Virus record (IMG/VR): IMGVR_UViG_3300017719_000004
Span: 18,644 to 82,643 of that record
Direction: 5' to 3' (one strand)
Source: a virus
DNA length: 64,000 nucleotides
Part shown: positions 1 to 47,677 of the stretch, piece by piece
Layout: every line of letters begins with the position of its first letter
Position numbering within the stretch: the first letter of the stretch is position 1
The notes under the pieces: model-generated
What the model saw: the letters and a program-made list of their open reading frames with translations, nothing else
Told to the model about the DNA's origin: nothing
The model's database searches: none
Program-made: the position numbers and the translations under genes

Positions 1-458
1 GCATATCCAGGGCTGAAAGATGATTTACTATGGATAAACTCAAGCATGCCAGCAGCAAATGTATTAGTTTTATCAACCCACTGTTCCCGCTCTTTATCGA
101 TCTCCTCAGGAACATCAATGAATGCTACCACACTCAGATTACCATCATGAATGTGTAAAGGATTAAACTCATGCTGTTTCATGTAATTAATCCAAGGACC
201 ATTACCTAGATTATAAGTGAAATTGCCACCACCATGCCGAACCAGAGTACAGAATTCTATGATGTGGTATTCAACAAAACGGTTGAACGCAGGTTTGTCG
301 TCTACAATTGCCTCATTTTGAATTTGGATATTGCCAGCAAGATCATAACCGACAGATTCACTATCTGTAGATTTGCTAGCAATATCTTTGAGCATTGAAA
401 GATGTTCCTCCGACATAGCAGTGTGATAAATCGGAGGACCAAAAAAGTTAAGAATCAT
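1..458 (-). CDS. 2OG-Fe(II) oxygenase-like protein, 3' end cut by window
   Basis: The frame is open from an ATG at 458 to the window edge, giving 152 complete codons; an in-frame ATG at 470 is the alternative start. The protein begins MILNFFGPPI and contains the segment FNPLHIHDGNLSVVAFIDVP at about residues 98-117. This H-x-H-D-x3-S pattern followed by a hydrophobic strand and Pro is typical of the putative 2OG-Fe(II) oxygenase family common in cyanophages; the distal His and Arg would lie beyond the window. The start overlaps the stop of the CobS-like gene (450-448) by 11 bases, so the two are probably co-translated. The substrate is unknown. The family call is from motif recognition only. 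Confidence 0.7.
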   Translation of the reverse strand, partial: MILNFFGPPIYHTAMSEEHLSMLKDIASKSTDSESVGYDLAGNIQIQNEAIVDDKPAFNRFVEYHIIEFCTLVRHGGGNFTYNLGNGPWINYMKQHEFNPLHIHDGNLSVVAFIDVPEEIDKEREQWVDKTNTFAAGMLEFIHSKSSFSPGY

Positions 459-1518
459 TTTCTTCAGCATTAAGAGTAAAATCTACATCAGCGTCAACTT
501 TGTCATAGAGTTCTAGGAACGCCTGTTTTGTCTCATCATCAAAACGATTCACACAAACTTCAATAGCTTTCTGCTTATCGTTCCAAATGGAATAAGCACG
601 AGCAATGTGAACCAAACGGCGGGTAGAAATAACCTCCTCAATACCACCATCGTAGAAGGTCTTACGGATAATGTCTGCCCAGTCACAGAGACGCTTACAG
701 AAGTCCTTATCACTACAGAGTGCTGTAAGAATCTTCTGCTCTACTGTGGATGGGGGATAAGACTGCTCAAAGGTTACAGGGAACCTCTCAAGAAATGCTT
801 CATTCAATACATTAGTACCAATAAAACGACCATCTTCAGATCCCTTACCTTTAGTATTGGCAGTAGCTATTACATTGAATCCTTTTACGGGTTGAACATA
901 CTTACCAATCTTCTTCAAAAACACACCCTTGCCTTCAAGGATGGATTGGAGACAGAGGATTTTGTTAGATGCAAGATCAACTTCATCTAGAAGCAACACA
1001 GCTCCCCGTGAAAGAGCCTCCACGACGGGTCCATTATGCCAGACAGTTTCGCCATTAACAAGACGAAACCCACCAATAAGATCATCTTCGTCAGTCTCAA
1101 TTGTGATGTTAACACGAATGAGTTCTCTATTTAGAGAAGCACATGCTTGTTCGACAGAGAGTGTCTTACCATTACCAGAGAGTCCTGTGATAAAGCAAGG
1201 ATAGAATTCACCTGATTTGATAATTTTTTTCACATCGGAAAAGTTACCAAAGGGAACATATTGAGGATCTTTGGGGGGAATAAGATTTTGAATTTCCAAA
1301 GAAGGAATGGCTGATGGTGCAGTGTAATTTTCTTCAAGCTTTTCTTGAATAGTCAAGTCCCATTTTCCACGAGAAACTTTAAACTGATCCAATCTCTTAG
1401 TAACTGTTTGATAGTTAGTTTCATTCAAAGCACACCATGCACGAATATCAGAACCAGTTACATTATCACCATAAAGTGCTTGGAGAGAAGTGCGGATGTA
1501 ATCAGAAGATAGCGCCAT
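448..1518 (-). CDS. cobS: CobS-like / MoxR-type AAA+ ATPase
   Basis: A 356-residue AAA+ ATPase. With the chosen start (MALSSDYIRT) the Walker A GLSGNGKT is at about 112-119, Walker B LLLDEVD at 175-181, sensor-1 Asn in ATANTKGKG near 221, and an Arg-finger region FLERF near 242-246. Cyanophage homologues are annotated as CobS, the ATPase subunit of aerobic cobaltochelatase; the wider family is MoxR chaperone-like ATPases that work with VWA proteins. A VWA partner lies just upstream (1729-3843), which fits an ATPase/VWA pair, but no CobN chelatase is visible in this window. The frame is open up to ATGs at 1587 and 1599. I prefer 1518 because GAAAGA lies just before it and the extra N-terminal region coincides with a promoter-like element and short CTCTGCCCC repeats. 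Confidence 0.85.
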   Translation of the reverse strand: MALSSDYIRTSLQALYGDNVTGSDIRAWCALNETNYQTVTKRLDQFKVSRGKWDLTIQEKLEENYTAPSAIPSLEIQNLIPPKDPQYVPFGNFSDVKKIIKSGEFYPCFITGLSGNGKTLSVEQACASLNRELIRVNITIETDEDDLIGGFRLVNGETVWHNGPVVEALSRGAVLLLDEVDLASNKILCLQSILEGKGVFLKKIGKYVQPVKGFNVIATANTKGKGSEDGRFIGTNVLNEAFLERFPVTFEQSYPPSTVEQKILTALCSDKDFCKRLCDWADIIRKTFYDGGIEEVISTRRLVHIARAYSIWNDKQKAIEVCVNRFDDETKQAFLELYDKVDADVDFTLNAEENDS

Positions 1519-1540
1519 GGTGTCTTTCGTTGATGTAGTT

Positions 1541-1568
1541 ATTATAGGGCAGAGTGGGGCAGAGTCAG
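1541..1568 (-). promoter_or_regulatory. Sigma70-like promoter before the CobS-like gene
   Basis: On the minus strand CTGACT (1568-1563, 4 of 6 to TTGACA) is followed after 16 bases by a perfect TATAAT (1546-1541), and the preferred start ATG lies 22 bases further on. The spacer contains imperfect direct repeats of CTCTGCCCC. This resembles a host-sigma early promoter; it is not the late-type octamer seen before the structural genes. Confidence 0.45.
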
Positions 1569-1579
1569 GGGCAGAGTGG

Positions 1580-1732
1580 TCAGTCATCAAATCGTCCATA
1601 CTTGTACTTCATTGCTTGAAGAAACCAAGCATCGGTAAGAGACTTAGGACCATGTATTAATATTTGCACTTGTCTTTCTTTGAGAGATGGATCTGCCAGA
1701 GCTCTCTTTTTCCATTCCTGAATGTCTTTCAT
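1580..1732 (-). CDS. 50-residue hypothetical protein between the CobT-like and CobS-like genes
   Basis: A short ORF beginning MKDIQEWKKRALADPSLKER and ending in YGRFDD. Its ATG (1732-1730) overlaps the TGA of the CobT-like gene (1731-1729) in an ATGA arrangement, the translational-coupling pattern used throughout this genome, which is the main reason to believe it. It is charged, has no membrane segment, and looks mostly helical. Its stop overlaps the longer possible N-terminus of the CobS-like gene. I do not recognise a family. Its place between an ATPase and its VWA partner suggests a role with them, which is inference. Confidence 0.6.
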   Translation of the reverse strand: MKDIQEWKKRALADPSLKERQVQILIHGPKSLTDAWFLQAMKYKYGRFDD

Positions 1733-3843
1733 GCTACCAAAGAAATAAATTCATTTAAAATTCTCTTGTTCATTTTTTTACTAGACAAGGATCTTTTAAA
1801 AGCATTTTTTATAGTTGCCTTTGATGCTCCAGTGTTAACAGCAAACTCAGTACTATTAGAAAGAGATGAATTACCCACAACAAAGTAGGAATCATATCCA
1901 GCATTTTTAATAGTAAAGGTTTTTTCTTTCCTCCAACTACGGATTGCTTTCTCTTGATCTTCCCATCTATCAATGTATTGACGGATCATTGCCGAGTAAG
2001 ACCCTCCGTGTTCCAAAATACGAAATCCAATAAAGTTTGTATTAGGGAAAGTTTCTTTTAAGTCAGTCAACATACACTTAGTAAACTGAGAGTAGATCCA
2101 AGAGAGAGGACGAACCGTTCCAGTTTTAAGATTTCTAAGAATAGTACTGTCACCAATCCTACGATTACGAACACTATAATCACATTCCCAACTACGCTTC
2201 ATCATGACAGTCCGAGAGGGAACTTGTGCTTCACCATCGGTAAGAATAACACAATTTATTTTCTGCACTCCATTCCTTTTTTTAAAGTCAGGAATAATAT
2301 AATGAAGAGTTATGATAGCTTCATTTAAAGGAGTACCTGATAAGTATAGACGAGCAGGACAAAGCCCAGAATGATCTGTAAAGGAGCTAGCAAGTCTCCA
2401 AATATTCATCATTTGACGATTAGCACTAGCATTATTTACATTACTAGTCAAAAGATTGAGCATGGAAAACTCATCACTAACAGATATCGTACCTTCTTTC
2501 TTTTCAATATTAGAGAAACGACCCGCTTTATAATTCCATTCAGAAGTAAATGCATATACATCATAAGGAATACCTACCTTACGACAGAACCAGATCAAAT
2601 TATAGAGTTGTTTAATAGTTGGGATGAGAGAATTTGCCATAGATCCAGACCAATCCAAAACAAAAATTAATCCATGGTTCTTACCATCTGGAGTAGTAGT
2701 AACTTTTTTAAAAAGATCTTCATTATATTTGTAGGTATGCAGCTTAGAGCAATCCAAAACTCCAGTACGACTAGTTGTTGCACGAGCATAAGAATCTGCA
2801 GACTTCTTACATTCAAATTCTTTAATCAAATAATTAACTTCTTTGTTTGAATCTTTCTTAAATTTTTTAAATTCATCATCTTGACGAGCTAGCATATCAG
2901 TATAGTATGAGTGATATTCTTTACGCTCCTCAAACCACCTTTGCCATTCTTCCTCAGCATATTCGTGAATTTCTTTAGCAGAAATAACAGTATGATTCAA
3001 ATCGATCTTAGGAATTGTCACATAATTATTTTCATGAACTTCCATATCAGCAAGATTCTTTAGATGATTCTCAAATGCCTCAGCAGTTTTAGACTCTTGT
3101 TCATCAACGGTCTCATCATCTTCACTTCCAGTTTCATCAGACTCGCTCGGTACTTGCTCGGTAACTTGCTCGGTCTCTCTATTCTCTTCCTCCCTTTTCG
3201 CTGCTTCTTCCAGCATCTCTTCATGCGTCATACCTTCTTGCTCAACTTCACTAGTAGTATTTCCCACTTGTGGTTGGATTTCTGGAGTGGAAGGTTCGTC
3301 ATTCACAAAATCATTTAAAAGCTTTGCTGCCATCAAAGCGTCATCAAAAGTCTCAGCATTTTCAACGGCATCAACAACTACCATCTCTTTCTCAGAGAAT
3401 TCAATATTGACATGAGTGCCCAGTTTAAAATGCAAATTTATCCTATCAGCAAAAGAAAACTTATCTAAATCCTCACCTTCAATATCGAAGAAGTCACTAT
3501 CATTAAGGTCAGAATATCCACGATAAAATGTCTTACAAAGACCAGCATACCTACGCTTCATCAACTTTTCAATGCGAGCATCTTCAGTAATGTTCACAAA
3601 AGTTTGAGGTACATCACTCCATTCTAATTCTACAGACCAATTCCTAGGGTCTGTGAATAGAGCATGACCAACCTCATGAGATACCAAGAGATCATATACA
3701 TCAACCGAAGATATCTTCCAATTAGGTAGAGTTAGTACACGACGAACTACATCAAACTGAGCAGTCTCAACAGCACGATGCTCAACAATTAGATTCTCAG
3801 TAGCGAGCAATCGTGCCAGTTTGCCTTTGATCTCGTGGAACAT
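1729..3843 (-). CDS. cobT: CobT-like protein: HExxH region, acidic linker, VWA domain
   Basis: A 704-residue protein. The N-terminal part has HEVGH at 56-60 followed by TEDARIE at 86-92, an arrangement like a zinc metallopeptidase. Residues about 190-255 are a very acidic Glu/Asp/Ser/Thr linker. The C-terminal half is a von Willebrand A domain with a MIDAS motif DWSGS at 397-401 and a later ILTDGEAQ. This architecture matches CobT, partner of CobS in aerobic cobaltochelatase, and more broadly the VWA partners of MoxR ATPases. The ATG at 3843 follows AGAGAGGTAG, an acceptable Shine-Dalgarno. The CobS-like ATPase lies downstream. The true task, metal insertion or ATP-driven remodelling or proteolysis, cannot be decided from sequence. 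Confidence 0.8.
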   Translation of the reverse strand: MFHEIKGKLARLLATENLIVEHRAVETAQFDVVRRVLTLPNWKISSVDVYDLLVSHEVGHALFTDPRNWSVELEWSDVPQTFVNITEDARIEKLMKRRYAGLCKTFYRGYSDLNDSDFFDIEGEDLDKFSFADRINLHFKLGTHVNIEFSEKEMVVVDAVENAETFDDALMAAKLLNDFVNDEPSTPEIQPQVGNTTSEVEQEGMTHEEMLEEAAKREEENRETEQVTEQVPSESDETGSEDDETVDEQESKTAEAFENHLKNLADMEVHENNYVTIPKIDLNHTVISAKEIHEYAEEEWQRWFEERKEYHSYYTDMLARQDDEFKKFKKDSNKEVNYLIKEFECKKSADSYARATTSRTGVLDCSKLHTYKYNEDLFKKVTTTPDGKNHGLIFVLDWSGSMANSLIPTIKQLYNLIWFCRKVGIPYDVYAFTSEWNYKAGRFSNIEKKEGTISVSDEFSMLNLLTSNVNNASANRQMMNIWRLASSFTDHSGLCPARLYLSGTPLNEAIITLHYIIPDFKKRNGVQKINCVILTDGEAQVPSRTVMMKRSWECDYSVRNRRIGDSTILRNLKTGTVRPLSWIYSQFTKCMLTDLKETFPNTNFIGFRILEHGGSYSAMIRQYIDRWEDQEKAIRSWRKEKTFTIKNAGYDSYFVVGNSSLSNSTEFAVNTGASKATIKNAFKRSLSSKKMNKRILNEFISLVA

Positions 3844-3920: not shown

Positions 3921-4454
3921 CTACCTACCCATCATACAAGCAACACTAACTCTCCAGAAAGGAGTATCTACTTTGATAGGAAGAGCATCATGAAGTTCGT
4001 TTGATCTAAAGACAACAAAATCTCCAGGCTCAAAAGTATAAGTACGATCCTCTATTTGTAGTTCACCTCCCCATGAGGGGTCCCATTGAGGAGTAAGAAA
4101 TCCAACAACGCTCCAAATGTATTTACCTTTAGCATCACCGTCTGTATGGAAGACAGAAATATTTCCTTTTCTTTGTGCGTTGAATCCAATCGCACCTAGT
4201 GATCCAACTGGTAAAGTAAACCCATACTCTTCTTGTATTCTATCACGAAGAACACTCATCAAACAAATAAAGTATCCAGATAAGAAAGGACTGTGCATAC
4301 CATTAGCATCCATAGCCACTGTTCTTGGATAATGCGTAAGTGGATCATCAATACCGCCATAAGCGCCACCAATTTTCCAAGTCGCTTCTCCCATCAAGTG
4401 CCCATATACTTGTTCGACATCAGCTTTAGATAAAAGATTTTTTACAATGTACAT
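3921..4454 (-). CDS. 2OG-Fe(II) oxygenase (prolyl 4-hydroxylase-like)
   Basis: A 177-residue protein with the full double-stranded beta-helix signature: iron-binding HTD at 103-105 in SVFHTDGD, distal His at 155 in SNELHDALPI, and the 2-oxoglutarate-binding Arg near 168 in FWRVSV. WGGELQIEDR and FEPGDFVVFRS between them are the strands expected in this superfamily. Such proteins are frequent in cyanomyoviruses; substrates (protein residues or nucleic acid) are not established. It follows gp46 with a 3-base gap and precedes a terminator-like hairpin, so it probably ends the gp47-gp46 transcription unit. Confidence 0.85.
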   Translation of the reverse strand: MYIVKNLLSKADVEQVYGHLMGEATWKIGGAYGGIDDPLTHYPRTVAMDANGMHSPFLSGYFICLMSVLRDRIQEEYGFTLPVGSLGAIGFNAQRKGNISVFHTDGDAKGKYIWSVVGFLTPQWDPSWGGELQIEDRTYTFEPGDFVVFRSNELHDALPIKVDTPFWRVSVACMMGR

Positions 4455-4457
4455 AAT

Positions 4458-6188
4458 CTATCCTTCAACGGATGTTTTTTCACTCATGTAAGAGAACCCA
4501 CCTTTCTTACTGAATTCTACCACATTATTAAATTTGTCCAGCATGTCTGCTTTGTGAGAAATCACAAAGGTATTTGCATCTTGAATAACGAATCTAATAA
4601 TCTTAGTAAACTCATCCGTACCTACAGTATCTAGAGAGCTATCAAATACTTCATCTAGAATTAAGAGATTTGTATTAGCAGAGTTTTTAAACCTGGCAAC
4701 TTCTCTCCAAGCAAAGAGAAGTGCCAAGTCAATTCTCATTTTCTCCCCCTCAGAAAACGAGGAATAAGTGAACTTATCATGGACCGGGCTTTGAATCGTC
4801 TCTCCAAATTCTTCGTCAAGATGTAAGTTGACATAAAAGTCCATCATCTGAAGATATCGGTTAACTTGCTTATTAATAAGGGGAAGATACTTTTTGATTA
4901 TCTTTGTCTTTACTCCGCCATCTTTGAGCATAGAGTAAGCAAAATCATTGTATTTGACTTCCTCGTTTTTATCGGCAAGTTTCCCAAATACTACTTGAAG
5001 ATCGTCCTTAAACCCATCTAACTTCTCATGTTCAGAATTTCTGTTTTGTAGCTGACTGGTAAGAGTTTGAATTTCCGATTGTAAATCTCTGACTTGGCGT
5101 TGAAATCCAGAAATCCTAACATTATTCTGAGAAATGTCATGTGTGAGTTCAGTAATCTCCGTTGATAATTTTTTGAAGTGACGCTCTTTATCTTCTTCTA
5201 TCCGTATCGACTCCTCCAGTTTTAAGAAACCTTCTTGGAGTTCCTTTGCTTTAAATTGAGCGTCACTGATTTTATTTATTCTAAAATCTTCTTCGATAGA
5301 TTGGGTACATGTAGGGCATACCGTATTCTCTGTGAAAAACTTATGCTCTTTAGTAATAGTCGCTACCTTATTAGATATCTTTCCTTTTAATCCACCAAGC
5401 TCACGAAGTTTTTTAGTTGCATTGTTATAATTACCTAACTCATTCTGCAGAGATTCTACCTGTAACGAAAGTTTTTTATTATTTTCGTCTGCTTCCAAAG
5501 CATCCTGAATGAGTCTCTCTACCTTTGTTTCGTTCTTATCAATATTATCTTTGTGCCTGGTCTCTAGATCTTCAATGAAAGATGATTGCATTGAAATCTT
5601 ATCTTTAATATTAGACTTCTTTAGGGTAAGACTTTTAATAACCTCTCTAGACTGCCGAATATCCTCCTTCAGCAGGTTGTTCATAGCTGAGAAGATACGA
5701 ATGTCAAGAAGGTCCTCAATCACCTCTCTACGGTGCGACTGAGACAACTGCATGAAGGGCACGAAGTTACTACTACCCAATATAACAATCTGAGTAAAAG
5801 ATTTATAGTTTAGTTTAAGAATCTGATCTTCTACAATCTTTTGATTTGCTCTGTCATCAGCTTCTTTATTTTTCATTTCACCATCAACAAGAACATCAAA
5901 CACATTTGGTTTGATGCCCCTACGAACCATATACTTTTTAGGTCCTACAGAAAACTCAACCTCAACTAAGCATCCCTTTTCATTGGAACTATTAACTAGT
6001 TGTGGTTTGTTAATCTTACGATATGGTTTATTGAATAGTGCAAAACATAATGCATCAAGCATTGTAGATTTTCCAGCACCGTTTGTACCTATAACCAATG
6101 TAGTGGAACTCTTATTGAGTTGAATTTCTGTCCACTGATCTCCAGTAGATAAAAAATTCTTCCATCTAATTTTTTCAAATGTTATCAT
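4458..6188 (-). CDS. 46: gp46 recombination endonuclease subunit (SbcC/Rad50-like)
   Basis: A 576-residue SMC-like ATPase. Walker A GTNGAGKST lies at 34-42; long heptad-rich coiled coils flank a zinc hook C-P-T-C at 291-294; the ABC signature FSEGEKMRIDLAL is near 478; Walker B NLLILDEVFD is near 506. In T4, gp46 with gp47 processes DNA ends for recombination-dependent replication and degrades host DNA. Its start overlaps the small upstream gene by 14 bases, and gp47 lies directly upstream. Length is close to T4 gp46 (560). Confidence 0.95.
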   Translation of the reverse strand: MITFEKIRWKNFLSTGDQWTEIQLNKSSTTLVIGTNGAGKSTMLDALCFALFNKPYRKINKPQLVNSSNEKGCLVEVEFSVGPKKYMVRRGIKPNVFDVLVDGEMKNKEADDRANQKIVEDQILKLNYKSFTQIVILGSSNFVPFMQLSQSHRREVIEDLLDIRIFSAMNNLLKEDIRQSREVIKSLTLKKSNIKDKISMQSSFIEDLETRHKDNIDKNETKVERLIQDALEADENNKKLSLQVESLQNELGNYNNATKKLRELGGLKGKISNKVATITKEHKFFTENTVCPTCTQSIEEDFRINKISDAQFKAKELQEGFLKLEESIRIEEDKERHFKKLSTEITELTHDISQNNVRISGFQRQVRDLQSEIQTLTSQLQNRNSEHEKLDGFKDDLQVVFGKLADKNEEVKYNDFAYSMLKDGGVKTKIIKKYLPLINKQVNRYLQMMDFYVNLHLDEEFGETIQSPVHDKFTYSSFSEGEKMRIDLALLFAWREVARFKNSANTNLLILDEVFDSSLDTVGTDEFTKIIRFVIQDANTFVISHKADMLDKFNNVVEFSKKGGFSYMSEKTSVEG

Positions 6189-6444
6189 CTTGTGAAGGTG
6201 GAATTACGATGTCTTGGGAGGTAATCACTGAATACTTATAATTATACAGCTCACAGGCTTTTATTGCAAGGTCTTCTTCAATCTCAATCGTTGACATTTC
6301 AACTCCATGATCTTCTTCAAGTTGCTGTGCATATCTAACTGCATCGTCTTCTTCCTCAAAGATAAAAAGGACCTTGTTTCCTCTACGATCTTTTACGGCA
6401 TATGCCCCTTCTTCCTTTTTATCTTTCTCAGTCAATAAAAACAT
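6175..6444 (-). CDS. DUF3110-like small protein between gp47 and gp46
   Basis: An 89-residue acidic protein beginning MFLLTEKDKK. The pattern of a short strand, VLFIFEEEDDAVRYAQQLEE, then an acidic strand STIEIEEDLAIKAC resembles DUF3110 proteins of cyanobacteria and cyanophages. The function is unknown. Its ATG overlaps the gp47 stop by one base and its 3' end overlaps gp46 by 14 bases, so it is translated with the recombination nuclease and may adjust it; that is inference. The DUF match is from memory. Confidence 0.7.
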   Translation of the reverse strand: MFLLTEKDKKEEGAYAVKDRRGNKVLFIFEEEDDAVRYAQQLEEDHGVEMSTIEIEEDLAIKACELYNYKYSVITSQDIVIPPSQDDNI

Positions 6445-7496
6445 TATTCAACTTCACAAGCTTTTGAGTATAAAGAACCGAATAGGGTTTTAATTCTAGA
6501 CTTATCAATATCTGTTTCAGTATCTTCAATACATCTATTTAAAATAGACATCGTATTCTCTTCTTCACTAATATCTAAATCTTCTCCATGTAACCATCCT
6601 TGATTATAATCAAAGTTTTCAATAACTTTGAGTTCTTCTACACCAACAGTATACAGTTTATCAATAAACTTTTCAAAGTCTTTTGGTTTTGTTTTTTTAC
6701 GAACAATAACTTTAACGATTTTACCGGCATATTCTGAAGCATTAAACATCTGATGAGGAGTATCTTCATAATAGATGTTGTAGAACATATGATTGGGATT
6801 ATCAACCTGTTCTAAATCGTATGTCTCAGTATCAAAGAGATGGAAGCCTCTAGGGTCGTTAACATCGTTCCAATACAATTCATAAGGATTTCCCAAATAA
6901 AAGACTTGACCATCGTTACTACGAGTGTGATAGTGTCCAGTAAATACACGATCAAATTTCCTCAAATACTCTGCTTCATATCCACGGTCTTGCATGAACC
7001 CACGATAAGCAGCAAACCCGTTAAGTTCTAAATGCCCAACAGCAATTTTTGCAGTGCTCTTATTAATAAGGTTTAGAGTTTGCTGTTCATTCTCTTTATT
7101 AATCCAAGAGATAAATGCAAATTTTGTACCACCAATCAAGTGCTCTGCATAATCAGTGATAGGGATGATGTTATCATACTCTCGTAATAATAAATCGATT
7201 GTATTAATTGAGTTATTATTTTTGTAATAGGCAGTATGATTACCCACAACAGTGTATACAGTGATCCCCATATCACGGAGACGATCGTAGTAATTCTCTT
7301 TAGCCCATTTGAGAGACCAGAAGTCAATGCTCCGACGATTGTCGAAAGTATCTCCCATATCGATAATAGTTGTGATACCCTCAGCAAGAAGAGTAGGAAA
7401 AAAGGTTTCATCATAAAATTTTAAAAAATAATCATGAAACAATTTACTGCCCTTACGAGCACCAAAGTGCTGATCAGTTATGATTCCAATTTTCAT
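6444..7496 (-). CDS. 47: gp47 recombination endonuclease subunit (SbcD/Mre11-like)
   Basis: A 350-residue metallophosphoesterase. The binuclear-metal motifs are visible: D8-x-H10 at the N-terminus, GDTFD at 48-52, GNHT at 85-88, then VGHLELNG and TGHYHTRSND. It pairs with gp46 as the nuclease of the T4 Mre11-Rad50-like complex. Length is near T4 gp47 (339). The ATG at 7496 overlaps the stop of the upstream 72-residue gene by 4 bases (ATGA). Confidence 0.95.
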   Translation of the reverse strand: MKIGIITDQHFGARKGSKLFHDYFLKFYDETFFPTLLAEGITTIIDMGDTFDNRRSIDFWSLKWAKENYYDRLRDMGITVYTVVGNHTAYYKNNNSINTIDLLLREYDNIIPITDYAEHLIGGTKFAFISWINKENEQQTLNLINKSTAKIAVGHLELNGFAAYRGFMQDRGYEAEYLRKFDRVFTGHYHTRSNDGQVFYLGNPYELYWNDVNDPRGFHLFDTETYDLEQVDNPNHMFYNIYYEDTPHQMFNASEYAGKIVKVIVRKKTKPKDFEKFIDKLYTVGVEELKVIENFDYNQGWLHGEDLDISEEENTMSILNRCIEDTETDIDKSRIKTLFGSLYSKACEVE

Positions 7497-14258: not shown

Positions 14259-14909
14259 TTAGAGACTTGACAGGAACTTGTTGAATAATGCCAACTTGTT
14301 CTCCTGCAATGCTCTTTCATCAACTAGGGTATTAATTTGCTTGTATGTCTTCTCCACGAGTTTTTCGCGGACAATACTACCATCCATTACCCAGTCTTTT
14401 CCTTCCATGATTCCCGATACAAATGCATCAGGTGCGGAGGGGTCTGCTACAATATCAGCAGCAGTTGCAAGCATAAAATCGTTAGAAACGATCTTAATAC
14501 CATTCTCATTTACCGCTAAAGTTCCAAGACCACGGGAAGAAACTCCCAACTTGACACCTTCATCAATAAGATTTTGTGCAATCTTACCCATGGGGGTGTT
14601 GAGAATTTTAGCTTTACCTACAAAATTAGTTCCCTCTTCTCTGAGAGATGTAATTTTATGAGATACGCGATCCAGGTTGAGGGTAGGTCCTTCAGGATGT
14701 CCAAGTTCTCCAAGAGCTCTGCCTTTACCGACAAAACTTTCGTTGTAACGACTGACTTCCCTACGGAGAGTATCCATAGGATACATCCGACCATTGCGGT
14801 TCTGGATGTCACCCTGTAGGAAAACTCCCTCAATATACATTGATTTCACGCCTTTGCGTTCTTCAACGATAACTTCAACCTGTTCGATTTCTTCCGTGAT
14901 AAGTTTCAT
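14259..14909 (-). CDS. 21: gp21 prohead core protease
   Basis: A 216-residue serine protease of the prohead-protease family (T4 gp21, 212 residues). The catalytic His is probably H71 in LGELGHPEGP and the Ser is in LGVSSRGLG at 124-125, matching the His and Ser spacing of T4 gp21. FLQGDIQNRNGRMYP near 31-44 is the conserved N-terminal block. It cleaves gp23, gp22 and other core proteins after (I/L)-x-E sites during head maturation. The gene sits between small core genes and gp22 as in T4. Confidence 0.95.
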   Translation of the reverse strand: MKLITEEIEQVEVIVEERKGVKSMYIEGVFLQGDIQNRNGRMYPMDTLRREVSRYNESFVGKGRALGELGHPEGPTLNLDRVSHKITSLREEGTNFVGKAKILNTPMGKIAQNLIDEGVKLGVSSRGLGTLAVNENGIKIVSNDFMLATAADIVADPSAPDAFVSGIMEGKDWVMDGSIVREKLVEKTYKQINTLVDERALQENKLALFNKFLSSL

Positions 14910-30197: not shown

Positions 30198-31018
30198 TAC
30201 CCAATCAAATCAAGGGGTGGAAGTTCGTAGGTAGACAACATTCTATCTTCAATACGCTGCAATTCCATTACAGCATCTTCGTAAATTTGTCTGCCATTTA
30301 ATTCAATACCTCCAGGGAGTTTAACTCCTTGGAATTTAGTTAAGTTTGTACCCCACTGTTTCTTAACCAGTTGAGTAAAATACTTCTTTAAAAAAGAATC
30401 ATTGTATACGCCAGCATAATTTGCTGGGTCCATAATTCTTTGGCAGTCAATGATTATGTATGTACCTTCTGATACTGATCCCCAATCAACATCGAGATAC
30501 AAACGATTATTTCTTTTGTTATATCTAATCTGCTTGTTTGTTGAAAGTAAGAAATCAATATCTTCAATATATGTTTTAGTCATCGCATAACTGAGAAGAC
30601 CACTATATCCCAAATTAAAAGCTACATCATTTAAAAACAACTGATATTTAAAACTAAACATGTTGTTTGAGATAAAGCTAGAATCAAACAAAAATACTTT
30701 CTCAACTCCAAGGACCGAATCAGGTACACTCAGATAATTTGTGTTTTCCTCAAAGTCTCCAGATGTTGTAGTAGAAGTAGTAATACCAAGAGATTCGCCA
30801 GCACCTCTTGCTCTGCCTCTTTTGATGTCATCTTCTGAGACCTTATATTTGAGATAAACTCTTTCGACGCCATCAAAGTGACGCTCATAAAAAAGTTGCA
30901 GAGCATCATCTAATGCATCATCTACTTGCTCATCAGCTACATTTATTTCTAAGACGGGATATCCAAGTTGCCTTAAAGCGTAATCTTTTAGTCCGTCTCT
31001 AGTGGTTGGTTTTGCCAT
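30197..31018 (-). CDS. 13: gp13 neck protein
   Basis: A 273-residue head-completion/neck protein (T4 gp13 is 309). The N-terminus RDGLKDYALRQLGYPVLEIN, the acidic QVDDALDDALQLFYERHFDG and the C-terminal SFLKKYFTQLVKKQWGTNLT are the typical gp13 blocks. It binds the portal together with gp14. The ATG shares a base with the stop of the fibre-like gene. Confidence 0.94.
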   Translation of the reverse strand: MAKPTTRDGLKDYALRQLGYPVLEINVADEQVDDALDDALQLFYERHFDGVERVYLKYKVSEDDIKRGRARGAGESLGITTSTTTSGDFEENTNYLSVPDSVLGVEKVFLFDSSFISNNMFSFKYQLFLNDVAFNLGYSGLLSYAMTKTYIEDIDFLLSTNKQIRYNKRNNRLYLDVDWGSVSEGTYIIIDCQRIMDPANYAGVYNDSFLKKYFTQLVKKQWGTNLTKFQGVKLPGGIELNGRQIYEDAVMELQRIEDRMLSTYELPPLDLIG

Positions 31019-34000
31019 CAGAATGTACCTCCATCAACACTGTTAGACCAAATTGGAATGTTATTCTCATCTGTGGTTAGCATGTAATTGGAGGTTGTTA
31101 AGAATCCTACAGTGCTAAGACCACTAACCAGTCTTCCATCTGCTTCAAAGAACGCAACACCGTTAGGTCCGCTATATCCAATACCAGTTAATCCACCTTG
31201 ATCTGATCTGTAATAGAGACCGTCGCGGAATGTACCGTAACCGATTATGCTTAGATTATCTTGGACAGTTACCTGACCAGCAGCAGAATCAAGAACAAGT
31301 TCTCCAGTATTGGTATTTATTTTGGTTGAGGAAGAACCAGCACCAATTGTGACATCAGAGATCGTTGTTACACCAGTAACTCTAAAGTTGTTAGTGGTGA
31401 GAATGCCAGAGACATTGATGTTGATTGCTTCAATACCAGCAGAGCTGGTTACAATTCCTGTAAGAATTGTTCCTTGATCTACTGTCAGAGTGGAGTGGAT
31501 GTTTGCATTAGTAGCAACATCGATTGTTCCAGTCTGAGTTACGCCACGAATACTAGCACCAATTGCTAGTGTCTCGATCTTAATGCCGTTGTTATAGTAT
31601 AGAGTAACAGCACCATCAGCAGTAAAGTTGGCAAGAGTTTCGCCAGTGTACTTCTGAAGTTCTACCTGATTAGAACGGATTGCAAGGGTGCCAGTTCCAG
31701 AATCATCAATGTATGAATTGTCGCCATCATGATAGATGGAGAGATCATCATTATCACCGAAGTGTGCCTTTACATCATCCTTGAAGGAAACAATTCCAGT
31801 GAATACTGCGTTTGTGACAGCAATACCAGTAAGTTTTGCATCAAATGCATCAAGAGCTTCAGTATCAATTGTGGTAATCGTTGCAGCAGTACCGACAGTA
31901 TCTGTTACAGCAAGACCAGTAATGTTGACATCTTTAGCATCTAATGTCTCAATGTCAACCGTAGTGATGGTTGCGTAAGTACCGACCAGTGAAGTTACAA
32001 CACCAGCAGTGATCTTAGCGTCAACTGCGTCGATACTAAGATTGAAGTCAACTCTCTCAGCAAATGTAGATACGCCAGTTACATCGAGTCTCTCAAACTT
32101 AGCAGTGTCGAGGACATCAAGTCTCTGTCTAGGTGCAGCAGTGCCGATACCCAGCTTCTGATTAGCGTCAAGGCGCATGCCCTCAACATTATCAGTATTG
32201 AATCTGATAGTGCCGTTAGCACCTGAGTCATCCAGAGCGATAGAAGTATCGTTCTTCTGGAAAGAGTCAAGTTGGATAGTTGTCGCAGTCAGGATACCCA
32301 GGACATTGACATCACCAGTGATGTTGATTGAACCTGCACCAGCTGGATCAATATTAATATCACCAGATGTAGATTCAATATTATTTCCAGCAATCTGGAT
32401 GTTACCGAATGTACCACTTGTAGGAGTAACAGTGCTGCTGTTAGTTCCGTCAGTAATCTGAAGTGAAGAAAGTGCTTGGAGGCTAGTTACTTGTTGCGAG
32501 AACGATACTGTACCGTTTTCTTGATCAACGAAGAATGCATCTCCAACTCTGAAGTCTCCTCTCTGGTCAATACTGACGAATGATACATCACCGTTATTAA
32601 TTTCGGTAACTTCATTAGCTTGAATTGCTAAGTTAGGATCGTTAGAGAAGTCACCACCAGCACCAACATGATTGAAGTTGAGAGCAAACAGTCTCAGAGA
32701 TACGCCATCGCCATCAGCAATGACACCCTTCTGACCATACTCAATAGCACAACCAACGGAGCGCATGTCTGCACCAAACTGACTGTAATCAGCAAGGATA
32801 ACCTTGGTTGCAGTCCCGATACCACCACCCGCTTGAGTGATACGAATATCTTGATTGCGGATTACATTATCAGTGGTTGTAGTTACTCCACTAGCACCAT
32901 CAAAGTCAAGTAAAAGAACAGTGTCCTTGTCACCAGTGTGTGCAGCAGTAGGGGCAGTAAAGTTGGCAGTATATTTGGCAACTCCTCTTTCAATTCTGAA
33001 ATCGTCGATCCAACCAGTAACATTTTGACTTGCACCGTCGAAGTCGGCACCAATTACGATACCTTTAGATGCGCCATAGTTGGTGGTGTCAGAAGTCTTA
33101 ATGCCTCTCTGAGTACCATCAACAAACAATCTGGTGTCTGTACCGTCTCTAGCAAGTGCATAGTGCTTCCAGACTCCTGTAGCGATGCCTGCGCCAGATC
33201 CAGTAATAGCGGTGGTAGTACCAACCCGCATATCAACTTCACCAGCTGCCCGATACGCAAGACTAATACCTTCAGCATCTGTGCCATTATCTCTTAAATC
33301 AAAGAGAGTTGCGCTAGTCAGACCAGTTGTATTTGAATACGCCCAGAATTCAATTGTGAAATCTGTATTGGTGCCAAAACCAAGATCGCCGCTAGAAGGA
33401 GCACTGATAGAATCATTTGTTCCGTCAAGTGCTAAAGATGCAGTACCAAATTTCTTGACTGTAGTGTCTAGTTGAGCACCATCATTAAATGTAATAGCTT
33501 TAGCAGTTCTAGCTCCGAGAATTTCAAAACCAGTTTGCTTGCCAGTTACATTAAGATATGTTCCGTCGTAATCAGCAACAATAGCAGTTGCAATACCAGT
33601 TGTTCCGTCAGTATCAAAAACGGTAATTGTATTACCAACACCAACAGTTGTAATACCCGTCAGTCTCAGTCTAGTTTCACCAGCAGAAGATAAACCAACA
33701 GATCCAGATATGCCCTTAATACCTTCAGCAGCGAAGTATGAGAAGCAGTTCAGGTACTCAGAACGAGCACCGTTGGTCATGATCAGACCTTTACTGTTCG
33801 GTACAATGAAAGTAACTTCATTGAACAGGAATGCTGCCTCAAGTGATCCAACAGCTGCTTCAGAACCATCAATGTAAGCACCACCACCAGCTTTATATGA
33901 GGAAGGTGCAGAATCTGCAGAATTATAACCGTATGGGTCAGCAGTAGAAGTATTACTACCTTTGTTGAATACTGTTACGCGCTGAACATAAGGAGATCTG

Positions 34001-37000
34001 CTTGTAATCGCAATACCAGGAGCAAACTTAAACGCATAACCCTGATTGCCAGCAGTGTCAAAGAACATATCACCAATCGTGACATCTTCGACGACTGATC
34101 TGTCATTCATCAAGAAGCAGTCTTTCTGCTTAGTAGCAACGGTAGGACAAATCTTGGTAGCACGGAGACCAGCACCCTTAACTGTCAAACCAGCTGGAAC
34201 AGTTAGTGGAAAGACCTCTTCATAAACACCAGCAGCGATGAGAAGAATATCATTAGTACCAATGTTGGAGATCTGAGACAGAGCGTATGCAATCGTTCTG
34301 TATGGCCTTTCTTCAGTGCGTCCACGAGATGCATCACCGTCGTCAACACCGTTAGTAGAAACATACCATGTATCAAGCTTAGCATTGATTGTGGCAATAC
34401 CAATCTGTGCAGGTTCACGCCAGGTGATCGTGCCATCTGGATTGGTACTCAGCATGTGCTGAGTGTTCAGACCAACAACACCAGTGGAGTCATACAGAGA
34501 GGTAATGAAACCTGCCTGAACAAATGCAGAGGTTGCAATACCAACCGAGACAGTTGCATTCAGAATGTCCGCAACTTCAAAGTCAACTGTAGTGATAGTT
34601 GCGGCAGTACCAACAATATCAGTGACTGCTAATCCAGTAATATTTGTCTGTCTTGCATCCAGGGTCTCGATATCGACCGTGGTGATCGTAGCGTAGGTGC
34701 CAACCAGAGAGGTTACGATACCGGCAGTGATCTTAGCGTTAACGATATCACCTTCTGTGGCGTCAATCGTCGTAATAGTAGCAGCAGTACCGACAATATC
34801 GGTAACAGCTAAACCAGTAATATTTGTCTGTCTTGCATCGAGTACATCGATATCGACAGTTGTAATTGTCGCGTATGTACCAACTGTCGAATCAACAATC
34901 AGATCATCAACACGAGCAACGCCGTCGATGTAGATATCTCGCCACTCTTTAGTAGCACTACCAAGATCGAAGGTGTCATCATCGTCAGGAACGATGTCAG
35001 AGTCAACTTCACCAGTAAAGATGATGTTGTCTGTAGTAGAGTCACCAAGACCGATTGTGCCACCGTTAAAGGTTACATTACCAGTAAAGGTTGTAGCTCC
35101 ACCAACTCTGAGATCACCAGTAACCTCAACATCACCAATGGTGGCAGCAGTGCCAACCAAGCTTGTGATGATACCGGCAGTAATCTTGGCATTAACGATA
35201 TCACCTTCTGTTGCATCAATCGTTGTGATTGTTGCAGCAGTGCCGACAATATCAGTAACGGCAAGACCAGTGATGTTTACATCTTTGGCATCAAGAGTCT
35301 CAATGTCAACCGTTGTGATAGTTGCATAAGTACCAACCTGACTAGTAATAATACCAGCAGTGATCTTAGCATCGAGGATGTCAGCAGCATCAAGATGTGC
35401 TGTGCCATCAACATAAATGTCTTTCCACTCTCTATCAGTAGTACCAAGATCCAGAGTGTCATCGGCACTAGGAATAAATTTGAGGTTAGATTCCCAACCC
35501 TCTCTTGCCTGATCGTATATGAATTCTTTGTCAGTTGTTCCCTTAAGGATGATACCGCCGTTATCGGCTGTAGCATCAGCATGTCCACCAGTAGAACTGA
35601 ATCCAAGTTCAATGTTCTTGTCGGTAATCTGAACAACCGTACTCTGAACAAAACTTGTAGTTCCGTTGACTGTCAGATCACCAACAACAGTAAGAGCTCC
35701 ACCAACACGAACATCGTCTTGGAAGTTAGCATCTTGGAAGGTTACATATGTACCTGTCAGTGAGGTGATGATGCCTGTAGTAATCTTGGCATCAAGTGCA
35801 TCAAGATTAGCAAAATCGCCAACAGTGTATGTTAAACCATAACCAACAATAGATGTTACAACACCAGCAACAGTTTTAAGGGTGTTGATATCACCTTCAT
35901 TAGAGTCGAAGGTTGTGATCGTGGCATAGGTGCCAACCAGAGATGTGACTAAACCTGTGGTTACTTTAATATCTCTGAGATCAGCAATCTCAGTATCAAA
36001 GGTTGTAATCGTGGCATAGGTGCCGACCATACTGGTAACAACACCAGCAGTAATCTTAGCTGCCTCAATATCAGCATCAACAAAATCAACTCTAGTGATT
36101 GTTGCTGCAGTACCAACAGTGTCGGTAATAATACCTGACTGAATCTTAGCGTTGGTAATTGCAAAATCAGTTGCTAAACCAGCAGTGACTTTAATATCCT
36201 CAACACCGATATCATTAGCATCGATTTGCGGAACAGATGTTACGCCAGCGATTACTGTGTTACCAGTGCCTTTATCAACAATTACTACACCACCAACATC
36301 CAACAACCCAAAGGGTCGTGTGGTGCCGATACCGACATAACCAAGTTGGTTACCGTCGATCCAATTAATATTTTGATTACCAATTACGAGCTGGTTATCA
36401 CTATCTCCGATAGCAACATTTCGCTCATAACCGATGATGACATTGCCACTACCAAGAGTATCGTTACCAGCAGAGTAACCAATGGCAATGTTCTTACTAC
36501 CGTCTACACTGAAGAGAGTGTAAGGACCAATAGCAATGTTTCTTTGCTGCTGTCTGGTTCCTGTACCACCACTCAGGAAGCGACCATTCCTGCTGGTTAC
36601 GCTACCTGTAAGAGTCTGGAAACCAAACGGCATGGTGAATGTATCACCAACTTCGTAACCATCGCCAGGGGCCATGATTTCGATGTTAGTAATAAGACCA
36701 GTATTACCAGTCTGTAATCTAACTAAGAGTCCAACACCAGATCCACTGGTCTCGGTTACATCTTCTGTCTGATCATAATTTGCAACAGCAGTTTGATCAC
36801 CAACATTTACGCTGAGAGATACCCCATCAACAACAGGGAAAGTCTCACCATACATCGACTGGTTACCCAGAGCAATGTTCTCATCGTTGCCGCTAGAAGA
36901 TAAGGCAAAACCTACCTTATCACCAATCATCAAGTTCTTAGTACCTTGCAAGCGATAGCCTGCAAAGTTACCCATGACGATGTTAGATTCTAACTCGTCA

Positions 37001-37800
37001 CTGCTGGAAAGAATACCAGCATATTGCATTGCACTGGCACCAATCGCAATATTGCGACGGTTAAGGACAGTTTGTCCAATACCAGCACCAGCAAAGTCAC
37101 CAATAAAGATTGAAGAGTCAGCACTGCTAAGACCTACAGCAGCATCACGACCAACTCTAATAATATCATTGGAGAATGTAATATTACTGAAGGATGATAC
37201 CCCAGTAATTTCTACATTATTTGCAGTAAGTGCATGTCCTACATTTACTTCGTAGTAGTCAGCACTTGTACCACTAAGAGTGGTTACAACACCCGCAACT
37301 GCACGGAAATCAGTTACACCTAGGGTAGAGAATCCAGCAGCACCAACATCTAATGTGGCAGCAGTTGCAATACCAGATACATTCCAGTTTCTAGCATTAG
37401 CCTCATCATAAACGAGGTCTCCTGTTACATTAAGGTTTCCGCCAACACTAAAGTTGCCAGCAACTGTACCAACACCAGAAGTATAAAAGTCATCTACGAC
37501 TGTCCAACTAGCTACTCTTCCAGAAGAGTCTAGGATAACAACTTTTGAAGCTTCGGGTGTACCGAAAGATGCTGGGTTTTCTGGGAATAGGCTGGTGTAA
37601 TATTCACCACCAATCGGAATAGGAGCTGCAGTTGGACCTGAAGGGTTGCCAATATATAATTTCTTGTATGACTTACCAGCACCTACATTACTGGTATCGT
37701 ATGCGTATACTAGTTCACCGAACGATACGCCAGTACCAACGGGAGCAATGTTTGGTGGGGAAGTCCCAAGTGTCCTTTTTAAGAGAATCGTTGCGGACAT
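31018..37800 (-). CDS. 2260-residue modular tail-fibre-like virion protein
   Basis: A mosaic protein upstream of gp13. Modules in order: an N-terminal block (1-240); six repeats of the YadA-head type (NIAIGASAM, NIVMGNFAG, NLMIGDKVG, NIALGNQSM, NIAIGPYTL, NIAIGYSAG) at about 245-455; long tracts of a VGTYATITT / VGTAATITT repeat (about 560-1110 and again 1900-1980); a beta-helix module starting TWYVSTNGVDDGDASRGRTE (about 1140-1340); a LamG-like lectin module (about 1448-1637, with FTIEFWAYSN and WKHYALARDG); and an IYHDGDNSYI motif common in marine phage fibres near 2020. It ends VDGGTF. It probably binds host surface sugars. Placement in the particle is inferred. Confidence 0.8.
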   Translation of the reverse strand: MSATILLKRTLGTSPPNIAPVGTGVSFGELVYAYDTSNVGAGKSYKKLYIGNPSGPTAAPIPIGGEYYTSLFPENPASFGTPEASKVVILDSSGRVASWTVVDDFYTSGVGTVAGNFSVGGNLNVTGDLVYDEANARNWNVSGIATAATLDVGAAGFSTLGVTDFRAVAGVVTTLSGTSADYYEVNVGHALTANNVEITGVSSFSNITFSNDIIRVGRDAAVGLSSADSSIFIGDFAGAGIGQTVLNRRNIAIGASAMQYAGILSSSDELESNIVMGNFAGYRLQGTKNLMIGDKVGFALSSSGNDENIALGNQSMYGETFPVVDGVSLSVNVGDQTAVANYDQTEDVTETSGSGVGLLVRLQTGNTGLITNIEIMAPGDGYEVGDTFTMPFGFQTLTGSVTSRNGRFLSGGTGTRQQQRNIAIGPYTLFSVDGSKNIAIGYSAGNDTLGSGNVIIGYERNVAIGDSDNQLVIGNQNINWIDGNQLGYVGIGTTRPFGLLDVGGVVIVDKGTGNTVIAGVTSVPQIDANDIGVEDIKVTAGLATDFAITNAKIQSGIITDTVGTAATITRVDFVDADIEAAKITAGVVTSMVGTYATITTFDTEIADLRDIKVTTGLVTSLVGTYATITTFDSNEGDINTLKTVAGVVTSIVGYGLTYTVGDFANLDALDAKITTGIITSLTGTYVTFQDANFQDDVRVGGALTVVGDLTVNGTTSFVQSTVVQITDKNIELGFSSTGGHADATADNGGIILKGTTDKEFIYDQAREGWESNLKFIPSADDTLDLGTTDREWKDIYVDGTAHLDAADILDAKITAGIITSQVGTYATITTVDIETLDAKDVNITGLAVTDIVGTAATITTIDATEGDIVNAKITAGIITSLVGTAATIGDVEVTGDLRVGGATTFTGNVTFNGGTIGLGDSTTDNIIFTGEVDSDIVPDDDDTFDLGSATKEWRDIYIDGVARVDDLIVDSTVGTYATITTVDIDVLDARQTNITGLAVTDIVGTAATITTIDATEGDIVNAKITAGIVTSLVGTYATITTVDIETLDARQTNITGLAVTDIVGTAATITTVDFEVADILNATVSVGIATSAFVQAGFITSLYDSTGVVGLNTQHMLSTNPDGTITWREPAQIGIATINAKLDTWYVSTNGVDDGDASRGRTEERPYRTIAYALSQISNIGTNDILLIAAGVYEEVFPLTVPAGLTVKGAGLRATKICPTVATKQKDCFLMNDRSVVEDVTIGDMFFDTAGNQGYAFKFAPGIAITSRSPYVQRVTVFNKGSNTSTADPYGYNSADSAPSSYKAGGGAYIDGSEAAVGSLEAAFLFNEVTFIVPNSKGLIMTNGARSEYLNCFSYFAAEGIKGISGSVGLSSAGETRLRLTGITTVGVGNTITVFDTDGTTGIATAIVADYDGTYLNVTGKQTGFEILGARTAKAITFNDGAQLDTTVKKFGTASLALDGTNDSISAPSSGDLGFGTNTDFTIEFWAYSNTTGLTSATLFDLRDNGTDAEGISLAYRAAGEVDMRVGTTTAITGSGAGIATGVWKHYALARDGTDTRLFVDGTQRGIKTSDTTNYGASKGIVIGADFDGASQNVTGWIDDFRIERGVAKYTANFTAPTAAHTGDKDTVLLLDFDGASGVTTTTDNVIRNQDIRITQAGGGIGTATKVILADYSQFGADMRSVGCAIEYGQKGVIADGDGVSLRLFALNFNHVGAGGDFSNDPNLAIQANEVTEINNGDVSFVSIDQRGDFRVGDAFFVDQENGTVSFSQQVTSLQALSSLQITDGTNSSTVTPTSGTFGNIQIAGNNIESTSGDINIDPAGAGSINITGDVNVLGILTATTIQLDSFQKNDTSIALDDSGANGTIRFNTDNVEGMRLDANQKLGIGTAAPRQRLDVLDTAKFERLDVTGVSTFAERVDFNLSIDAVDAKITAGVVTSLVGTYATITTVDIETLDAKDVNITGLAVTDTVGTAATITTIDTEALDAFDAKLTGIAVTNAVFTGIVSFKDDVKAHFGDNDDLSIYHDGDNSYIDDSGTGTLAIRSNQVELQKYTGETLANFTADGAVTLYYNNGIKIETLAIGASIRGVTQTGTIDVATNANIHSTLTVDQGTILTGIVTSSAGIEAININVSGILTTNNFRVTGVTTISDVTIGAGSSSTKINTNTGELVLDSAAGQVTVQDNLSIIGYGTFRDGLYYRSDQGGLTGIGYSGPNGVAFFEADGRLVSGLSTVGFLTTSNYMLTTDENNIPIWSNSVDGGTF
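31850..36110 (-). repeat. Degenerate repeats within the fibre-like gene
   Basis: The unit encoding ITAGxVTSLVGTYATITT, then VDIETLDAxxxNITGLAVTD and IVGTAATITT, recurs many times, clearly at about 31850-32030, 34580-34880, 35130-35350, 35740-35960 and 35990-36110. Copies are near-identical in protein and strongly similar in DNA. This is an in-frame coding repeat, open to recombination that would change fibre length. Confidence 0.75.
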
Positions 37801-38538: not shown

Positions 38539-38738
38539 AACTTATCAACAATTTTAGACAACATATTTTTAATATCATCAATATCTTTTTTCATTGAGTC
38601 GAGCTCTTCTCTCTCATTTTTCTTTGCAGACTTTTCTCTTAAGTATGAATGATACCCAGAGTCATCGCCATTGACGATGGCTCCAGTATCAGAATCTCTC
38701 CAAAGATTAGAATGTCCTTCTACAGGAATCAAACTCAT
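38535..38738 (-). CDS. 67-residue hypothetical protein with C-terminal coiled coil
   Basis: The protein has an N-terminal block MSLIPVEGHSNLWRDSDTGA followed by a charged helix with heptad spacing (LDSMKKDIDDIKNMLSKIVD). The N-terminal motif H-S-N-L-x-R-D-x2-T-G-A-I-V-N is common to small proteins of T4-like cyanophages. It overlaps the 2440-residue gene by 4 bases. It may be an oligomeric tail or assembly factor; that is inference. Confidence 0.6.
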   Translation of the reverse strand: MSLIPVEGHSNLWRDSDTGAIVNGDDSGYHSYLREKSAKKNEREELDSMKKDIDDIKNMLSKIVDKL

Positions 38739-47669: not shown

Positions 47670-47677
47670 TATTTATA
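47670..47677 (-). promoter_or_regulatory. Late promoter TATAAATA before gp8
   Basis: An exact minus-strand TATAAATA overlaps the stop of the giant baseplate gene and lies 33 bases before the gp8 ATG. Confidence 0.65.

Follow-up and report, generated by a model that had tools for sequence, protein, structure and literature searches.

T4-like phages of cyanobacteria have cobS in their core gene set, and the gene is usually listed among the auxiliary metabolic genes for vitamin B12. For the protein encoded beside it, Liu et al. 2021 (PMC8651126) concluded that the cyanophage “peptidase” is a mis-annotated CobT, and in their proposal viral CobST acts as a genuine cobaltochelatase motor, taking over the CobN of the host to raise cobalamin in infection. 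Iyer et al. 2021 (PMC7824862) described a MoxR-vWA pair in group 2.2 jumbo phages, with a metallopeptidase domain at the N terminus of the vWA protein, and proposed a role in virion assembly with processing; they placed cyanophages, together with Ochrobactrum phage OC, in group 2.1. In a third system, NorQD, a finger of the VWA domain is inserted in the pore of the hexamer, the N-terminal domain is bound to the ring, and the linker is stretched by ATP-driven rotation (PMC13036017).

The phage protein analyzed here is a further case of the kind already published by Iyer et al. As in their group 2.2 pair, a MoxR ATPase is accompanied by a vWA protein that starts with a metallopeptidase-like domain, in phages of the gp23 type; the cyanophages belong, however, to group 2.1 rather than 2.2, and the likeness is one of described domain architecture. 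The protein is also of the same family as the cyanophage “peptidase” T4-GC 146 (phrog_459), which is found beside cobS and in the same place between gp46 and gp45, but that label names no mechanism.

The window, i.e., the whole stretch of 64,000 nucleotides that was analyzed, is part of an 82,643-base virus record (IMG/VR IMGVR_UViG_3300017719_000004). The gene is one open frame of 704 codons without internal stops (Table 1), and the whole 704-aa protein was modelled by AlphaFold2 with a mean pLDDT of 82. No match to a VWA, CobT, or peptidase entry reached significance in sequence searches of Pfam, NCBIfam, and the PDB with the protein or with its profiles. Sub-threshold zincin matches are scattered among family members (MPTase-PolyVal, 0.023; Zn_peptidase_2, 0.064) and were left out as proof.

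Table 1. Features of the zincin-VWA locus, with positions in the window and the evidence for each
Feature	Position	Strand	Evidence
CobT-like VWA protein with N-terminal zincin-like domain, 704 aa	1729..3843	-	phrog_459 “peptidase”, E 4.4e-254, end to end
N-terminal zincin-like domain, residues 1-186	3286..3843	-	AlphaFold of domain alone and Foldseek neighbours
HEVGH, residues 56-60, in predicted helix 47-63 (“active-site helix”)	3664..3678	-	
TEDARIE, residues 86-92, in predicted helix 80-98 (candidate “glutamate helix”)	3568..3588	-	
Acidic linker, residues 187-246, low confidence, pLDDT <50	3106..3285	-	Whole-protein model
VWA domain, about residues 390-660	1864..2676	-	Model; NorD match 9qhe_G, E 3.9e-4
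MIDAS motif DWSGS, residues 397-401; T504 and D536 complete the set	2641..2655	-	All invariant
Candidate VWA “finger”, four-stranded beta insertion, about residues 541-580, directly after MIDAS Asp	2104..2223	-	Model secondary structure
C-terminal helix, residues 675-703	1735..1821	-	Model
CobS-like MoxR AAA+ ATPase	448..1599	-	phrog_249 “porphyrin biosynthesis”, E 1.6e-137
Walker A GLSGNGKT of CobS-like ATPase	1162..1185	-	
Walker B VLLLDEV of CobS-like ATPase	979..999	-	
gp46/SbcC-like recombination nuclease subunit	4458..6188	-	phrog_77, E 3.2e-182
gp47/SbcD-like recombination nuclease subunit	6444..7496	-	phrog_100, E 2.2e-111
Head maturation protease, separate gene	14259..14909		phrog_207

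A preliminary description of this DNA, made from the letters alone, had reported HEVGH at residues 56 to 60 and TEDARIE about 26 residues downstream; both motifs were found at these places, with 26 residues between H60 and E87. In 20,000 shuffles of the 704-aa protein, HExxH arose in 3.5% and HExxH-x15-40-EDxxxE in 0.045%: by chance, a lone HExxH is no great rarity in a protein of this composition, but one followed by EDxxxE is rare. Conservation is stronger evidence for the motif than the shuffles. In an alignment of 66 homologues that are 28 to 61% identical to the query, H56, E57, H60, N84, E87, D88, and R90 are each present in 66 of 66 members, the MIDAS residues D397, S399, S401, T504, and D536 are invariant, and HExxH is intact in all 120 phage loci that cover the N terminus. 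The glutamate of HExxH is the catalytic base in zincins and is not a metal ligand. The invariance of both histidines and of the non-ligand E57 therefore argues for chemistry in the phage family.

This conservation bears against a pure remodeller, in which a pseudo-enzyme would use its zincin fold as a client- or ATPase-binding adaptor and the metal site would be structural at most. Such a protein would be in keeping with the N-terminal domain of NorD, a motor-binding domain for which no peptidase role is described (PMC13036017), with the host-range function of ArdC, which works without its protease site (PMC7213743), and with homologues that have a broken HExxH and retain the second motif; with HExxH complete in every phage locus covered, we consider it rather unlikely. 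The homologues concerned are an Acinetobacter plasmid protein (QEVAK), a protein of phage ANB28 (REVST), and CobT, all of which lack HExxH and keep EDxRxE (E-x-x-R-x-E). The retention of EDxRxE in such homologues indicates a second role for that helix, so that E87 is not assignable as a zinc ligand from conservation alone; it is a candidate third ligand. It also means that in some lineages the N-terminal domain can persist with no metal motif. A tree of the VWA region, used to ask how often HExxH was lost, has long branches and 56% support and requires one or two changes, which is too weak to settle the direction of change.

The N-terminal domain was folded separately because the whole-protein fold search was swamped by VWA domains (AlphaFold pLDDT 89.9, pTM 0.84). 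The predicted topology consists of a helix, three short strands (19-22, 29-31, and 36-39), helix 47-63 with HEVGH, helix 80-98 with EDARIE, and more helices; in the model HExxH and EDARIE are on consecutive helices behind a small beta-sheet. This predicted layout agrees with the published zincin core, in which an N-terminal helix is followed by a three-stranded sheet, the HExxH helix, and the Glu helix (PMC5512222). With its conserved HExxH on one helix, a conserved Glu on the next, and the small sheet, the domain resembles gluzincins in motif and predicted fold.

The top matches of the domain in a Foldseek search of the PDB were mostly zincins (ArdC, selecase, abylysin, M1 aminopeptidase, PprI/IrrE, and Wss1). 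Each is weak alone, with a best E of 0.08 and none reaching E 0.001, and support therefore comes from the class of matches and from no single one. In the viral library, unnamed and CobT-like/VWA proteins of other phages and archaeal viruses came first, and PolyVal, IrrE-like, and SprT-like peptidases followed further down. The best PDB match is to the ArdC/PolyVal zincin metallopeptidases, which are found on mobile elements and likewise have a compact zincin with an HExxH helix and a Glu helix. Between His and Glu there are 26 residues here and 23 in ArdC, a similar spacing, the value for ArdC being deduced from the residue numbers of E202 in HExxH and of the ligand E229 (PMC7213743). ArdC differs, however, in having an ssDNA-binding domain and no VWA domain (PMC7213743).

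Bacterial CobT (PF06213/PF11775) resembles the phage protein in having a VWA domain, an N-terminal domain, a CobS partner, and a METARCE motif that corresponds to EDARIE. The preliminary description had called it degenerate in this region, and indeed none of 25 Rhodobacteraceae CobT proteins, taken from loci recovered by a genome search with the Pfam CobT model, has an HExxH before the METARCE-type motif. In a MAFFT alignment with two CobT proteins, AFALR and ALALR stand opposite HEVGH, and METARCE stands opposite TEDARIE. Direct comparisons with CobT were insignificant: hhalign in local mode between the phage N-terminal domain and CobT, and an HMM of Rhodobacteraceae CobT against the 704-aa protein, gave no significant match, and the protein has no Pfam PF06213 or PF11775 match, with PF06213 touched by 9 of 36 family members (best E 0.079). 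The CobT link therefore rests on a phage-plasmid intermediate that the Pfam CobT model recognizes. This bridge, a Klebsiella SSU5-type phage-plasmid homologue with HEVGH intact, scores 81.6 bits in PF06213 (cut-off, 26.1) and is also above the cut-off for CobT_C, and it is tied to the phage family through phrog_459 and through hhalign with the phage domain. Judged by these sequence comparisons, the 704-aa protein is a distant CobT relative. The evidence is in keeping with a protein whose architecture and VWA half are like those of CobT, and whose N-terminal half resembles a zincin. The views of Iyer et al. and Liu et al. oppose each other for the phage family, and the labels “peptidase” and CobT are each half right.

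The absence of CobN had been claimed for the window, and it extends further: PF02514 gave no match in the 82.6-kb record, itself a fragment, or in 13 further related phage genomes or records (14 records in all), whereas CobN-family matches are present in a Synechococcus control genome. With the NCBIfam CobS model, the CobS-like protein scores 65.5 bits, far short of the equivalog cut-off of 558.55. Both results lower the viral CobST proposal (PMC8651126), in which a CobN of the host could still serve. The distant CobT kinship, the SSU5-type homologue that combines HEVGH with both CobT domains, and the CobN-family matches of the control genome favor a true cobaltochelatase motor. Set against the CobS score, the lack of a Pfam CobT match in the 704-aa protein, the insignificant hhalign comparison, the CobN searches, and an HExxH that is invariant here and missing from true CobT, they leave viral CobST very unlikely. 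The N-terminal motif, complete here and absent from bacterial CobT, makes a remodelling or cutting machine more likely than a B12 chelatase. If the partner of cobS is a zincin-bearing co-chaperone, the function assumed in many claims that marine viruses boost the cobalamin of their hosts is the wrong one.

The MoxR-type ATPase that the preliminary description had placed next door has intact Walker A and B motifs, matches AAA_5 (E 2.9e-18), and scores above the cut-off for CbbQ_C. Its match to phrog_249 starts at residue 26, and the ORF begins about 25 codons earlier, so that Met28 may be the true start. A CobS-like gene is adjacent in 91 of 92 relatives (loci with at least 2.5 kb downstream; gene within 2.6 kb). 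The exception, L124, is the sole fetched relative with this much downstream sequence and no CobS-like gene, 5 kb having been checked. In whole-protein Foldseek the matches were VWA domains, among them that of NorD from the NorQD complex, and the complete MIDAS (DxSxS, T, D) in a VWA fold beside a Walker-intact neighbour is that of a MoxR AAA+/VWA pair.

NorD likewise has an N-terminal domain, a flexible linker, a C-terminal MIDAS VWA domain, and a MoxR partner. Its client, however, is nitric oxide reductase, and a Sinorhizobium NorD-like protein encoded beside a NorQ-like gene, the one that was read, has no N-terminal HExxH. Likely counterparts of the NorQD parts are recognizable here: the MoxR motor, the MIDAS VWA domain with a possible finger, the acidic linker, and the N-terminal domain; the metallopeptidase-like site is extra. 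The beta insertion is a candidate for a VWA finger like that of NorD (PMC13036017), and the C-terminal helix is a candidate for an ATPase contact as in NorD.

We consider it probable that the pair is a NorQD-like AAA+/VWA remodelling machine with a gluzincin-type domain and with clients in DNA metabolism, not a machine for corrin chelation. The analysis shows the motif, its invariance, the predicted fold, the motor partner, the gene context, and the lack of a detected CobN; metal binding, catalysis, the client, and NorQD-like mechanics are what we infer. The CobS-like protein would be a hexameric motor, and the 704-aa protein would be a VWA co-chaperone that plugs the pore of the motor with its VWA domain. 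The flexible acidic linker would hold the N-terminal gluzincin-type zincin domain, with its intact HExxH and candidate downstream Glu. A client would be gripped by the N-terminal domain on one side and by the VWA/MIDAS face on the other, and it would be twisted or stretched as ATP is hydrolyzed, in the way proposed for NorQD. Zn2+ would be bound at the zincin site, where the client or one of its loops would most likely be cut, and the clients may be replisome, recombination, or DNA-bound proteins. The preliminary description had suggested an ATP-driven remodelling or proteolytic machine rather than, or besides, a chelatase. This suggestion is supported in part, with the intact gluzincin-like motif, the degenerate CobT, the MoxR partner, the lack of a CobN match, the mostly zincin-type neighbours of the predicted fold, and the NorD-like VWA domain in its favor; the retention of EDxRxE without HExxH speaks against reading it too simply.

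The pair sits between gp46/47 and gp45/44. Before it are gp46, gp47, a late sigma factor, and a UvsW-like helicase; after it, beyond the edge of the window, are a gp45-like clamp, a gp44-like clamp loader, RegA, DNA polymerase, UvsX, and the replicative helicase. This neighbourhood hints at a role in DNA replication or recombination. Homologous pairs in other elements, phage-plasmids and IncC-type plasmids among them, adjoin dnaE and/or ligase genes, primase and helicase genes, or SSB, RecT/Bet, and exonuclease-type genes. The position of the pair and its repeated occurrence next to genes for replication and recombination point to clients in DNA metabolism. A PADLOC search gave no defence-system match. 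The 177-aa ORF between gp46 and the zincin-VWA gene (window 3921-4454) has the PHROG label DNA endonuclease V (E 6.8e-9), but the P-SSM2 gene after gp46 encodes a PF05721 dioxygenase-type protein, and the label looks doubtful. Elsewhere, the structural region contains three very long ORFs (window 31018-37800, 38735-46057, and 47673-59813; 2260, 2440, and 4046 aa), which presumably encode tail or baseplate proteins.

The gene context also weighs on a function in virion assembly, in which the MoxR-vWA pair would aid assembly and the peptidase domain would process structural proteins, as proposed for the group 2.2 jumbo phages (Iyer et al. 2021). Related jumbo phages do have the same domain architecture (PMC7824862), and a peptidase-less MoxR-vWA pair is needed for tail assembly of an archaeal virus (cited in PMC7824862). 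Here, however, the pair is placed among replication and recombination genes, the head maturation protease is encoded by a separate gene (Table 1), and homologues with HExxH are found on conjugative IncC-type plasmids, which make no virions. An assembly protease and chaperone is thus quite improbable.

An intact HExxH followed by ED-x-x-x-E was found in the phage-plasmid protein, in Sinorhizobium, Citrobacter, Vibrio, Methylomonas, and IncC plasmid proteins, and in Rhizobium phage RHEph10. A Vibrio plasmid protein directly matches a “putative peptidase” of Pelagibacter phage Mosig (E 2e-5), and near-identical copies of the IncC protein are present on hundreds of plasmids. That widespread plasmids of the IncC type have this architecture as well points to a function that mobile elements share. 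Such a function could be that of an ATP-driven zincin protease or remodeller of DNA-bound proteins, Spartan/Wss1-like and coupled to an unfoldase, present alike in T4-like marine phages, in phage-plasmids, and in conjugative plasmids of the IncC type; in bacterial CobT, a relative, the peptidase site would have died and the machine would have been redirected to cobalt chelation; this wider view is speculative and, as a whole, unlikely.

Several plasmid loci, IncC and others (L156, L160, L161, L188, and L193), have a MoxR ATPase and an HExxH VWA protein in one region, some of them with SSB, Bet/RecT, or exonuclease-type genes. In L160, L161, and L193, a DUF3150 gene lies between the ATPase and VWA genes and may encode a third component, which is absent from the T4-like phage loci. 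The “CobT” proteins of Vibrio phage ICP2 and Gordonia phage Katyusha have an N-terminal HECYH and HEIGH, respectively, and no clear EDxRxE.

Homologues of the 704-aa protein were found in 463 phage records, mostly of Synechococcus and Prochlorococcus phages and usually annotated as “peptidase,” and they lie beside cobS in those phage records that were opened. A search of viral contigs with the Ochrobactrum phage protein gave no match. At least 598 stretches of IMG/VR were confirmed to have a homologue, and pelagiphage-type relatives were also found and added. To judge by the match and by the titles of the records, the hits in the genome collection look like contigs of phages that were binned into MAGs or were sequenced along with an isolate. 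The phage gene occurs on contigs binned as Euryarchaeota, Woesearchaeota, Planctomycetota, Chloroflexi, and others (L131 to L154), probably mis-binned phage contigs. In the assembly of Nonlabens xiamenensis 1Q3, the gene is on a 188-kb contig (L137) that may be a whole T4-like phage genome sequenced along with the isolate.
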